Origin: Eubacteriales bacterium
Lineage (GTDB): Bacteria > Bacillota > Clostridia > Christensenellales > UMGS416
Direction: 5' to 3'
DNA length: 6,699 nt
Assembly: GCA_028709505.1 (NCBI GenBank)
Contig: JAQVWW010000068.1
Coordinates: forward strand, 1-6,699
Under the pieces are notes generated by a model, which saw only the letters and a program-made list of their open reading frames with translations, made no database searches and was not told the origin of the DNA. Position numbers and translations under genes: made by a program. The stretch's first letter is position 1, and each line of letters begins with the position of its first letter. Of the stretch, positions 1,707 to 6,480 are shown one piece after another.

Positions 1707-2280
1707 AAGGATGCGCAGCATCCTTCCAGCTTATCCTCCCACTAAAATAGCGACAGCGGCCACTTGTGGCCGCGTCAGCGGTAAAGGATGCGCAGCATCC
1801 TTCCAGCCTATCCCCCCACTCAAGCAGCGTTAGCGGCCGCTTGCGGCCGCGATAGCAGGAAAGGATGCGCAGCATCCTTTTTGCCTATCTTCCCACCAAA
1901 AGCAGCGTCAGCGGCCACTTGTGGCCGCGTCAGCGGTAAAGAAGGATGCATCGCATCCTTTTGCCTATCTTCCCACTAAAGCAGCGATAGCGATAAAGGA
2001 TGCGCAGCATCCTTCCAGCCTATCTTCCCACTAGAGCAGCGTCAGCGGCCGCTTGCGGCCGCGATAGCGATAAAGGATGCATCGCATCCTTCCAGCCTAT
2101 CTTCCCAGTAGAGTAGCGACAGCGAGAAAGGATGCACAGCATCCTTCCAGCCTATCTTCCCACTAGAGTAGCGACAGCGAGAAAGGATGCGCAGCATCCT
2201 TTTGCTTATCCCCCCACTCAAGCAGCGTTAGCGGCCACGTGTGGCCGCGATAGCGGTAAAGAAGGATGCGCAGCATCCTT
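1707..2280. repeat. Palindrome A: nine copies of an invariant 8-bp stem with a variable triloop
   Basis: Copies lie at 1707-1725, 1784-1802, 1861-1879, 1942-1960, 1996-2014, 2073-2091, 2128-2146, 2183-2201 and 2262-2280. Both arms (AAGGATGC and GCATCCTT) are identical in all nine. The central three bases are GCA in six copies, ATC in two (1942, 2073) and ACA in one (2128). Copies 3, 4 and 8 run into four or five T residues at the right arm (for example 1878-1882), which makes them modestly terminator-like on the plus strand; the others are followed by CCAGC and are poor terminators. Confidence 0.95.
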
Positions 2281-2328
2281 CCAGCTTATCCTCCCACTAG
2301 AGCAGCGTCAGCGGCCACTTGCGGCCGC
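1756..2328. repeat. Palindrome B: six copies of a GC-rich 8-bp stem with paired substitutions
   Basis: Copies lie at 1756-1773, 1833-1850, 1911-1928, 2045-2062, 2231-2248 and 2311-2328. Those at 1756, 1911 and 2231 have arms GCGGCCAC/GTGGCCGC. Those at 1833 and 2045 have GCGGCCGC on both sides, so the seventh base pair changes from A-T to G-C on both arms together. The last copy (2311) is a hybrid with an A-C mismatch at that pair. The centre is TT except GT in the 2231 copy. Short direct repeats of the form GCGTCAGCG, GCGATAGCG or GCGACAGCG flank the stem, offset by 22 bases (for example 1905-1913 and 1927-1935). Confidence 0.93.
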
Positions 2329-2377
2329 GTCAGCGGTACAAAAACACAAATGCCTTCCCCGCTGTGGTTATCGCTCG

Positions 2378-2441: not shown

Positions 2442-2459
2442 GGGGAAAGTTCCCTTTTT
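2442..2459 (+). terminator. Possible weak rho-independent terminator for the plus-strand glycan operon
   Basis: GGGA and TCCC pair around AAGT, with one possible outer G-T pair, and five T residues (2455-2459) follow. The stem is short, and upstream CCC bases (2435-2437) could compete for the same G run. It is the first site after the sugar transferase gene with a hairpin directly followed by a T run outside the array. Confidence 0.3.
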
Positions 2460-2533: not shown

Positions 2534-2558
2534 AAAAACGCGGGAGATTCCCGGCGTT
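2534..2558 (-). terminator. Rho-independent terminator of the isomerase-kinase-methyltransferase operon
   Basis: Read on the minus strand directly after the methyltransferase stop, AACGCCGGGA pairs with TCCCGCGTT around loop ATC. That gives nine base pairs with one bulged C, and it runs into five T residues (2538-2534). The stem starts one base after the stop codon, which fits the end of the operon. Confidence 0.85.
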
Positions 2559-4208: not shown

Positions 4209-4990
4209 AGCCCCTCCTGCGCCGCCAGCACGCGTAGATGGGCCGTGGCCCGGGCGATGTCCCGGGCAAAGTCTTGCGTGGCGCCTTCGATGCTGACCCG
4301 CCCGGCGTAGCCGGCGGCCTTGAGCGCGGCGAAAAACGCCCGGTATTCCTGCTGGGCTTCGCCGGGCCGGCAATACGCGCGGCTGACCGGCTCGGCAATG
4401 TGGCAATGAACCAGCCTGTCCCCAGCCTCAAGGATGCCGGAGAGCGGCTCGGCATTGTTGTGCACGTGGTAGAGGTCGGCCAGCACCGCCAGGCCCTGCG
4501 GATCACCTGCCCGGCGGCAAAGGGAAAGCGCTTGGCTGACCGTATGGATGACATTGCACTCGCTGTGGGACAGCGGCTCAACAGCCAGCACAATGCCGTG
4601 CCGAGCGGCCAGGCCCGCCGCCTGGCGGGCAAAATCCGCCAGCTGATCCAGCGCCGCCTCTTGGGCAAAGCCGTCGGGCACCTGCCGCGCCGCGCCGCTG
4701 CCGAACACCACCACTTGCACGCCCAGCCGCTGGGCGCGGGCAAAGCCCCGCCGGGCAAAATCCAGCGCTTCGCCCGGGCGGGCGTCGGGGCCGGTCAGGC
4801 GCATGCCGCCGGGCAAGAACAGGTTCATCACCTCTATTGCCAGGCCGGTCTGCTGCACCTGCCGGCACAAGGACGAAAAATCCTCTTCCCGCATCTGGGT
4901 TACGGCGCTGAAACTTAGCTCCGCATAGTCGCAGCCGCCCTGCTTGGCCTGCGTTAGGTGCTCAGGACCGATACATACGCCCAGTTTCAT
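4205..4990 (-). CDS. Xylose-isomerase-like TIM-barrel sugar isomerase/epimerase
   Basis: A 261-residue cytoplasmic protein of the xylose isomerase-like / AP endonuclease 2 TIM-barrel family, which includes D-tagatose and D-psicose 3-epimerases, hydroxypyruvate isomerase and inosose dehydratase IolE. Seen: barrel strand 1 MKLGVCIGP (1-9); YAELSFSAV (22-30); AIEVMNLFLP (51-60); VQVVVFGSGAARQVPDG (91-107); and the probable divalent-metal ligands Glu138 (LAVEPLSHSE), Asp172 (LADLYHVHNN), His195 or His197 (LVHCHIAEP) and Glu235 (VSIEGA). Spacing of these acids and histidines fits the D-tagatose 3-epimerase-like subgroup, so an isomerase or epimerase activity on a keto sugar is more likely than a nuclease. 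The substrate is not determinable. It is the first gene of the operon, with GGAGGA at 5003-4998 eight bases before the ATG, and it overlaps the kinase gene by four bases. Confidence 0.9.
   Translation of the reverse strand: MKLGVCIGPEHLTQAKQGGCDYAELSFSAVTQMREEDFSSLCRQVQQTGLAIEVMNLFLPGGMRLTGPDARPGEALDFARRGFARAQRLGVQVVVFGSGAARQVPDGFAQEAALDQLADFARQAAGLAARHGIVLAVEPLSHSECNVIHTVSQALSLCRRAGDPQGLAVLADLYHVHNNAEPLSGILEAGDRLVHCHIAEPVSRAYCRPGEAQQEYRAFFAALKAAGYAGRVSIEGATQDFARDIARATAHLRVLAAQEGL
4213..4218 (-). promoter_or_regulatory. Shine-Dalgarno site fixing the kinase start
   Basis: AGGAGG (minus strand) lies four bases before the ATG at 4208, inside the end of the isomerase gene. The ATGA overlap (4208-4205) implies translational coupling. 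Confidence 0.8.
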
Positions 4991-4997
4991 CGTGATA

Positions 4998-5003
4998 TCC
5001 TCC
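4998..5003 (-). promoter_or_regulatory. Shine-Dalgarno site of the isomerase gene
   Basis: GGAGGA on the minus strand, seven bases before the ATG at 4990, sets the first start of the minus-strand operon. Confidence 0.8.
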
Positions 5004-5014
5004 GTTTTTTCTTA

Positions 5015-5044
5015 AGGGTACCCCCATCGGGCGCACGGCGTCAA
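5015..5044 (-). promoter_or_regulatory. Candidate promoter of the minus-strand operon
   Basis: On the minus strand, TTGACG (5044-5039) resembles a sigma-A -35 box, followed after 18 bases by TACCCT (5020-5015) as a poor -10 match. The -35 is good and the -10 weak, so it may need an activator or may be the wrong choice. It would put the transcript start near 5008, leaving a leader of about 18 bases. Confidence 0.35.
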
Positions 5045-5066
5045 TCTTTACTGGGGAAAATACCCT
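5015..5066. repeat. Inverted repeat across the divergent promoter region
   Basis: AGGGTA (5015-5020) and TACCCT (5061-5066) are perfect complements. Just inside them, CCCCA (5022-5026) and TGGGG (5052-5056) also pair, separated on the right by four A residues. The left arm covers the candidate -10 of the minus-strand operon, and the right arm lies just upstream of the plus-strand -35. This could be an operator serving both directions. Confidence 0.4.
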
Positions 5067-5073
5067 GTTCTCA

Positions 5074-5102
5074 TTGAAGTGCCGGCGGTTTTCTTTTACA
5101 AT
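5074..5102 (+). promoter_or_regulatory. Sigma-A-type promoter of the L,D-transpeptidase gene
   Basis: TTGAAG (5074-5079), a 17-base spacer and TACAAT (5097-5102) match the housekeeping consensus at ten of twelve positions with ideal spacing. The transcript should begin near 5109, giving a leader of about 55 bases. This rules out the in-frame TTG at 5074 as a start, because it is the -35 box itself. Confidence 0.8.
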
Positions 5103-5163
5103 AGAACTATATTGCGCTTTGTGTATCCTTTTACGGCGTCTATCACTGGTTCGGGGGTATGTT

Positions 5164-6480
5164 ATGAAGTTTCGTTGGAATTCGCTTGGCTGGTTCGATC
5201 CTTGGGGGCATGCCGGCGCGCTGTCTCATGCGCTGTGCCGACTGACCGCACTGTTTCTGGCCGCGGGGTTGATAGTGGGCGGCGCGCCGGTTTTTATCCG
5301 CGCCGCGTCGCCGGCGCAGATGGCCGTTACCCTCCCCCCCGCCCCGGTACCCGATACCACCCAGGTAGCTTCCCCCACGCCGGCGCGCACCTATGCGCCC
5401 TTTACCGCCGCGCCCGGCACGGCACCACCGGCTACCGCCGCGCCCACCGCCACAGCGCCGGACGGCACGCCCGCCCCTTCGCAGACGCCGTCCGCCTCGC
5501 TCACGCCCACGCCGCAGCCCGGCCCCACGCCCACGCCGGTATACACCGGCCGATATGTGCTGGTGGTGTATAAAGGCAGCCAGGTGGTGGTGGCTTACGC
5601 CGCCGACGATGCCGGCAACTATGACGCGTCCAAGCCGCTGCGTAAGATGATCTGCTCCACCGGCGCCTCGGGCAGTGAGACGCCGTCGGGCAGCTTTTCT
5701 ATCAGCAACAAATACGTCTACCGCAAGCTGGAGGGCGCCTATGGGCAATACGCGTCGCGTTTTTACGGCGGCTGCCTGTTCCATTCGGTGCCCATCGCCA
5801 CATCGGCCACCACCATAGACGCTGGCCGGTCGATGATGAGCGTCGCCGGCTATAACAGCCTGGGGCGCAAGGCCTCCCACGGCTGCATACGCATGCTGGT
5901 GCGCGATGCCAAATGGATTTACAGCAGCTGTCCCAGCGGCACCAAGGTCATCGTCACCGGGGACTCCAGCCCGGTGGGCGGCGGCTCCAAGCCGGCGCTG
6001 ATCCAAAAAAGCCCCTACGTCAGCGGCGGCCGCGGCTGGGACCCCACCGATCCGCACCCGTCCAACCCGTATAACAACAATGTTCTTTTTGTCCAATCGG
6101 TGCAGCTGGATAAGAGCGCGCTGACGGTGACGGCGGGTTCTACCGCCACGCTGCGCGCCACGGTGCTGCCGGCCAACGCCTACGACATTTCGGTCACCTG
6201 GCTTAGCTCGCAAAACGGCGTGGCCACCGTAGCCGACGGCGTTATTACCGGCGTAGCGCCCGGTCAGACGGTGATTACCGTCATCACCCAGGACGGCGGC
6301 TGGAACGCCGCTTGTATCGTTACCGTAGTGGAGCCTACGCCGGCGCCCACGCTGGACCCCACATTGGCTCCCACGCTGGCGCCCACTGCGCCGGTAGCCA
6401 CGCCGACAGCGGCGCCTACCGTGCCGCCGCCACCCACCGAACCGCCGCCGGCCACGCTGCCTCCCGAACCGCCGGCATAG
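5164..6480 (+). CDS. Membrane-anchored YkuD-type L,D-transpeptidase with Big_2 Ig-like domain
   Basis: A 438-residue extracytoplasmic enzyme that should cross-link peptidoglycan stem peptides or attach material to them through a Cys acyl-enzyme. Seen: a short cytoplasmic N-terminus; one hydrophobic segment at about 27-45 that is an anchor or poorly cleaved signal; a Pro/Thr/Ala-rich spacer at 56-126; a YkuD catalytic domain at about 128-266 with His207 (LFHSVP) and the active-site motif SHGCIRM (238-244), catalytic Cys241 at bases 5884-5886; a Gly/Pro/Asn-rich joint (270-306); a bacterial Ig-like Big_2 domain at about 310-389 (VQLDKSALTVTAGSTATL and the ending GVAPGQTVITVIT); and a Pro/Thr-rich tail to 438. 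No LPXTG sorting signal is present. I chose ATG 5164, preceded by GGGGG at 5153-5157, a mediocre ribosome site; the open frame extends upstream, but only into the promoter. A GNAT gene follows after 22 bases, probably in the same transcript. Confidence 0.93.
   Translation: MKFRWNSLGWFDPWGHAGALSHALCRLTALFLAAGLIVGGAPVFIRAASPAQMAVTLPPAPVPDTTQVASPTPARTYAPFTAAPGTAPPATAAPTATAPDGTPAPSQTPSASLTPTPQPGPTPTPVYTGRYVLVVYKGSQVVVAYAADDAGNYDASKPLRKMICSTGASGSETPSGSFSISNKYVYRKLEGAYGQYASRFYGGCLFHSVPIATSATTIDAGRSMMSVAGYNSLGRKASHGCIRMLVRDAKWIYSSCPSGTKVIVTGDSSPVGGGSKPALIQKSPYVSGGRGWDPTDPHPSNPYNNNVLFVQSVQLDKSALTVTAGSTATLRATVLPANAYDISVTWLSSQNGVATVADGVITGVAPGQTVITVITQDGGWNAACIVTVVEPTPAPTLDPTLAPTLAPTAPVATPTAAPTVPPPPTEPPPATLPPEPPA
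6352..6387 (+). repeat. Short 12-base tandem repeat in the L,D-transpeptidase tail
   Basis: Three in-frame copies encode LDPT, LAPT and LAPT (residues 397-408) in the Pro/Thr-rich tail. Such repeats are prone to slippage in multiples of four residues without breaking the frame. Confidence 0.6.

Follow-up and report, generated by a model that had tools for sequence, protein, structure and literature searches.

The window, i. e. the whole stretch of 6,699 nucleotides that was analysed, is a complete contig (C211) of a genome of 1.7 Mb in 340 contigs that is 76% complete. Gene positions in it were taken from reading of the sequence and from Pfam. A sugar transferase gene (PF02397; 1019..1705, + strand) and a methyltransferase gene (PF13649, PF08241; 2560..3306, - strand) converge here, as an earlier note on this DNA had described. 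Between them lies an array of palindromic repeats (1707..2338, + strand), which begins at the second base past the sugar-transferase stop codon. Further along, the window (5164-6477) codes for an L,D-transpeptidase (YkuD) that has a Big_2 domain and stretches rich in Pro and Thr.

Two terminator-like sites, both of them consensus matches only, are found between the array and the methyltransferase gene: a weak hairpin, accompanied by a T run, beyond the array (2442..2455, + strand) and a hairpin directly behind the methyltransferase gene (2541..2553, - strand). Judged by its sequence, the latter may end the methyltransferase transcript before the array is reached. The terminator scan returned four rows for the region of the array, two of which are the site at 2442..2455; shuffles gave 1.5 (sd 1.3). 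No promoter-like site was found in 1500-2700.

The array consists of nine head-to-tail units in a single orientation, as delimited by unit calling, tandem repeats and a covariance model. They start at 1707, 1784, 1861, 1942, 1996, 2073, 2128, 2183 and 2262, and the tandem-repeat rows (1706-2338) agree with these limits. Six units measure 77-81 bases and three 54-55. The lengths that occur (54, 55, 77, 79, 81) break the reading frame, and thus the repeat is not a coding one. All nine units open with the palindrome AAGGATGC-N3-GCATCCTT, here called stem 1. In unit 1 it reads AAGGATGC-GCA-GCATCCTT (1707..1725, + strand, perfect-hairpin scan). Its arms recur on the + strand at 1784-1802, 1861-1879, 1996-2014, 2183-2201 and 2262-2280, with the loop ATC at 1942-1960 and 2073-2091, and with the loop ACA at 2128-2146. 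Stem 1 is followed by a C-rich, G-poor linker (1726..1748 in unit 1, + strand, with a counterpart in every unit; 42% C and 11% G over the nine linkers) and then by a GCGNNAGC motif, the first of which (1750..1757, + strand) overlaps the start of the second palindrome. This second palindrome, stem 2, is present together with another GCGNN motif in six of the nine units and missing from units 4, 6 and 7. In unit 1 it is GCGGCCACTTGTGGCCGC (GCGGCC-N6-GGCCGC; 1756..1773, + strand); the others lie on the same strand at 1833-1850, 1911-1928, 2045-2062, 2231-2248 and, with one mismatch, at 2311-2328 in unit 9. The array holds 15 GCGNNAGC motifs, in which NN is TC six times, AT four times, AC three times and TT twice. 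It is possible that the motif forms a mini-hairpin with a GNNA loop.

These data confirm the composite palindrome array of nine units that the earlier note had reported. Of its two alternating palindromes both exist, but they do not alternate strictly, since stem 2 occurs in six units only and is mismatched in one of them. The linker, which it had called conserved, is similar between units but not fully conserved. It had also excluded CRISPR, and rightly so: a CRISPR has near-identical repeats and unrelated spacers of one length, whereas here what separates the stems is conserved too, with 19 of 35 shared columns invariant, and the unit length varies from 54 to 81.

Over the nine units none of the 16 columns of stem 1 is variable, as against all three columns of its loop and 16 of the 35 remaining shared columns (Fisher p = 0.0008 for stem 1 versus the rest of the unit). 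One inner pair of stem 2 reads A-T in three units and G-C in two others, and it is mismatched in one. Perfect hairpins with a stem of at least 7 bp number 14 in the array; 200 dinucleotide shuffles contained 0.21 on average and two at most. Folded as RNA, the + strand reaches -275.2 kcal/mol (shuffles -209.4, sd 4.0, n=20) and the - strand -317.4 kcal/mol (shuffles -251.0, sd 7.6). Because both strands fold far better than their shuffles, neither is singled out by folding energy. Single units beat shuffles only slightly (z -2.8, -2.6, -2.1 and -1.2), and unit 1 taken as DNA folds equally on both strands (-19.6 each). If transcribed, the array would by these models probably form a row of RNA hairpins. 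It was also considered as an intrinsic terminator, i. e. a GC-rich hairpin with a U-tract, and rejected, as no stem 1 on the + strand has this form. At most five T follow stem 1 on this strand, its own two included, which does not make a canonical terminator. No stem 1 passes the terminator scan on the + strand; one site within the array passes on the - strand.

The earlier note had proposed to look for further copies in the host genome. With a covariance model built from 14 units of three arrays, at least 24 units matched with E below 1e-4 among the 150 of 2011 candidates scored in this 76% complete genome. All 24 strong matches lie in four head-to-tail arrays, each on its array's own strand, and none is solitary. 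By the model the array of the window (C211) has nine units, C195 six, C103 three and C274, which was outside the first model, six. Hence there are three more arrays of the same build. The repeat does not occur only once, the case that the earlier note had named as a refutation, although the family was found in one genome only. Weak matches of the model on C78, C167, C316 and C196 proved on reading not to be arrays. The pattern GCGNNAGCGGYAA occurs 14 times forward and five times in reverse in the genome (two and three times for the reversed-pattern control); 12 of the forward matches are inside arrays, and the two others (C5, C168) are in none.

Flanked by ileS on one side and a nucleotidyltransferase gene on the other, the C195 array is antisense to each of them; it has the stem 2 GCAGCCC/GGGCTGC, altered on both sides. 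Ahead of ileS, on the minus strand of L005 (510-580), stands GGGTGGTACCGCG followed by a terminator-like hairpin, presumably a T-box signature; the Rfam search at gathering level gave no report for this site. In C103 a partial unit sits directly at the stop codon of a DUF1294 gene, the first full unit starts 12 bases further, and the array is followed by a 12-of-12 match to TTGACA-17-TATAAT ahead of a HisZ-like gene (hisZ). The three terminator-like sites found there are all the array's own stems with mixed tails (shuffles 1.2, sd 1.2). Seven of the ten C103 units are derivatives of 49-60 bases in which the right arm of stem 1 is missing; stem 1 is hence dispensable in this array. The folding of these derivatives does not surpass that of shuffles (z -0.7 and -1.1). 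At L006 (7848-8280) units of about 50 bases were seen that keep the GCGNNAGC frame while half of stem 1 is gone, with CC, AG, TT, GC, TC and AA as NN. In C274 stem 1 is CGGAAGGC/GCCTTCCG, i. e. four of eight pairs are replaced on both sides, and the C-rich linker and the AGYAGCG part are retained; two of its stems pass the terminator scan on the - strand. The linkers of the four arrays have C and G contents of 42/11, 41/16, 32/9 and 59/14%, and their sequence is not the same between arrays. Counted over their full length, the arrays C211, C195 and C274 contain more C than G, and C/G is 0.83-0.88 in C103 as well as in C186 and C15, two arrays of other sequence.

C211, C195 and C103 together have 18 units with stem 1, and its arms are identical in every one of them. 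Its loop measures two, three or four bases across the arrays, a variation more in keeping with a hairpin than with a rigid operator in DNA. In these three arrays alone, two of 15 pairs are altered on both sides, a number reached by 270 of 500 shuffles. A second count, over 19 units of four arrays with an alignment that was fitted to the structure, gave both-side changes in eight of 15 pairs, and 36 of 500 shuffles also reach eight. These changes fill 40 cells, which none of 500 shuffles equals, the cells being derived from few between-array differences. Pairing holds in 99.3% of the cells of the four arrays (equalled by none of 500 shuffles) compared with 34-57% for slid partners. As to further pair types, 498 of 500 shuffles have as many. 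The paired changes between arrays stem from few independent events. As DNA palindromes would show the same, they support hairpins but not RNA as such.

Hairpin arrays of other sequence came to light in a tandem-repeat survey of 102 of the 340 contigs (590 kb of 1.7 Mb), four of which were chosen by model match, one (C168) by pattern match and 97 without bias. Five of the 97 (C15, C19, C186, C209 and C178) carry a tandem array with a consensus hairpin of at least 6 bp; that these arrays are non-coding was judged by eye. C186 has eleven units of 55-56 bases starting 50 bases behind pyrG, and in them the palindrome GGAAAGC/GCTTTCC gives way to GGAAGGC/GCCTTCC. In C15 (L139, 284-540) palindromes alternate in units of 49/98 bases; this array appears to lie between divergent genes and, by eye, behind a TTGATG..TATAAT-like sequence. 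In C209 (L211, about 4561-5160) 179-base units, 2.1 copies by TRF and about four by eye, each carry a AAAAGCGGCC..GGCCGCTTTT-type hairpin; the array lies behind a zf-HC2 gene, has no Rfam match and looks like a tandem small-RNA or terminator array. C178 (L248, 1461-1774) consists of 124-base units with the hairpin TTGGGGG-ATCTG-CCCCCAA. A genome of the same genus contained two such tandem rows in 22 stretches (253 kb), namely an array behind mgtC (L166) and 2.2 copies of 20 bases (L178). The five arrays and the one from the same genus indicate that hairpin arrays recur while their sequences differ. Of the nine arrays examined for their place (eight from the host and one from the relative), eight lie behind at least one stop codon, where chance intergenic placement would put most of them too.

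The model matched none of seven relatives from the family and none of 395 other genomes of the order, those seven included; with 11 candidates scored per genome and strict filters, weak or diverged arrays would be missed in this search. In a genome of the same genus (G007) no array is present behind the sugar transferase gene (65% identical) or behind the DUF1294-type gene upstream of hisZ (hisZ 68% identical), and in both places the next reading frame follows within about 12-25 bases. Likewise, G006 has no array behind the sugar transferase gene (56%) or ahead of hisZ (47%); its sugar transferase gene is followed by what by eye is an ordinary GGGCCGG..CCGGCCC hairpin. As both sites are array-free in both genomes, the arrays at the C211 and C103 sites are likely recent.

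A collection-wide scan for tandem GGATGC-N3-GCATCC gave 29 stretches from several phyla, 14 of them under Clostridia-type names; the scan may omit records near the host genome, and no rate was drawn from it. No viral contig with the tandem GGATGC pattern was found. By mechanical reading frames some of the 29 stretches lie just ahead of a gene. Since their linkers and second palindromes are unrelated to those of the C211 family, they are of the same kind but not relatives. In Christensenella sp. UBA4263 and Clostridia RGIG4336 (L069, L073, L076, L097) the tandem units measure 81-86 bases and carry GGCCGGATGC-N3-GCATCCG and a similar second part (GTGCCGAAAG / GTGGCCGAAAG); they form a separate family. 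Five other stretches (L071, L077, L084, L090, L095; cyanobacterial, Rhodopirellula and Desulfocapsa) combine GGATGC palindromes with palindromes of the GTTCCCA..TGGGAAC type.

In our best reading, hairpin arrays of this kind evolve fast, arise by local duplication and sit at the ends of operons. If transcribed, it could be a multi-hairpin zone that ends or insulates the RNA of the upstream operon, to which we give a probability of roughly 40%. Among the functions proposed in the earlier note, a structured 3' RNA or transcription barrier would then fit best. A role at transcript ends is suggested by the hairpins and their constancy, by arrays that abut a stop codon at two loci, and by the fact that C103 has no other terminator-like site before the next promoter. 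The array would grow and shrink through local tandem duplication and slippage. RNA polymerase that runs past the end of the sugar-transferase gene would be slowed by a series of up to fifteen hairpins, the C-rich, G-poor single-stranded linkers between them might let Rho load, and transcription would then stop ahead of the convergent methyltransferase gene. The host genome does encode a Rho RNA-binding domain. Several findings speak against a terminator role: the C195 array is antisense to both neighbours and C15 apparently lies between divergent genes, the - strand folds as well as the + strand, stem 1 is mostly lost in C103, and whole-array C/G is below one in C103, C186 and C15. Moreover, going by its sequence, the weak + strand site behind the array (2442..2455) could suffice alone.

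A bolder and rather unlikely version is that the lineage swaps ordinary terminators at some operon ends for head-to-tail arrays of its own. Each array would have its own stem sequence and stems would be swapped between loci, with the architecture of hairpin, C-rich linker, GNNA mini-hairpin and second hairpin kept; unit number would set the read-through, which amounts to a termination zone tunable by slippage. If arrays do set termination strength, unit number would be a heritable read-through dial that slippage could alter quickly. In any case the arrays are a natural experiment on the upkeep of hairpins, with one architecture and different stems at several loci of one genome.

The main rival of a zone at transcript ends is a neutral, self-expanding minisatellite, in which tandem duplication makes the units and template switching during replication keeps or rebuilds the stems without any function. 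We regard this as possible, if somewhat doubtful. Arrays that differ in sequence, and a model that finds none in relatives, are expected under fast turnover, and units without stem 1 or stem 2 survive. Template switching can both create and repair hairpin stems and can give paired changes (PMC8794818). However, it matches the arms within one unit and alone does not keep stem 1 letter-identical over nine units, let alone over the 18 units of three arrays whose linkers diverge. None of the stem-1 loops in the four arrays shows loop inversion, which PMC8604942 names as one outcome of template switching. If the arrays are neutral nevertheless, they would offer a clean example of a mutation mechanism that by itself keeps palindromes perfect.

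The same constancy of stem 1 could reflect binding of a dimeric or nucleoid protein to the dyad AAGGATGC-N3-GCATCCTT in DNA, with the repeats serving to cluster sites. Invariant half-sites around free central bases, identical arms in three arrays and the equal folding of unit 1 on both DNA strands would agree with this, but half-sites spaced by two, three or four bases are unexpected for a rigid operator, and C274 and C186 have another palindrome. Such a binding array thus appears quite unlikely to us. It seems slightly less likely still that the array is a transcribed structured RNA which binds a protein or another RNA via repeated linkers. Single-stranded linkers do recur between stable hairpins, and the GNNA-type loops are variable; yet the linker sequence differs between arrays, no promoter-like site lies around the array, and no Rfam match reaches the gathering score. 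The least probable explanation is the REP-like or BIME-like mobile family, spread by a tyrosine transposase, that the earlier note had put forward. Intergenic palindromes in clusters, and matches to the Y1 transposase in three of eight family genomes, the one of the same genus included, are compatible with it. By contrast, the 76% complete host genome has no Y1_Tnp match, there is no conserved GTAG or CGTC tag, and all 24 strong matches (150 of 2011 candidates scored) are head to tail in four arrays, none of them solitary.

Searches for known elements in Rfam 15 gave three matches in the window, all below gathering, of which MIR5638 (E 0.14) covers the array on the - strand; in 19 further loci they gave one tRNA and nothing on any array. 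A word search of open papers found no such arrays described in the titles and abstracts listed.

REP and BIME elements are likewise short intergenic palindromes, often clustered and mostly behind genes, for which roles in termination and mRNA stability have been proposed (PMC3733652, PMC2817692). The likeness pointed out in the earlier note holds as an analogy but not as membership, which fails on tag, orientation and copy number. A REP palindrome carries an unpaired tag, GTAG or CGTC, at one of its ends, although untagged REP-like families also exist (PMC3733652). Next to stem 1 the nine units have neither a constant GTAG nor a constant CGTC; CGTC occurs at six of the 15 GCGNNAGC motifs, only where NN is TC. 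Whereas a BIME has regularly spaced REPs in alternating orientation, the units of each array are all on one strand. REP copy number is usually above 100 per genome (PMC2817692); here at least 24 units were found, and the stem sequence differs between arrays. The BOX element of Streptococcus pneumoniae resembles the array: it too is an intergenic repeat of modular plan, its tandem structured modules vary in number, and it has a predicted RNA fold (PMC3049150). In BOX, boxA and boxC modules enclose the boxB copies; at the ends of the C211 array no distinct bounding modules were seen, and its repeated module is stem 1-linker-stem 2. Families of stem-loop sequences, defined in 40 earlier genomes, are also intergenic repeats with a common predicted secondary structure (PMC2267715), a likeness of description. 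Finally, terminators made of clustered hairpins that need no U-tract have been proposed; there, too, several successive hairpins follow a stop codon (PMC8355165). Two-hairpin units are the commonest among them, whereas the C211 array is a tandem repeat with up to fifteen hairpins.
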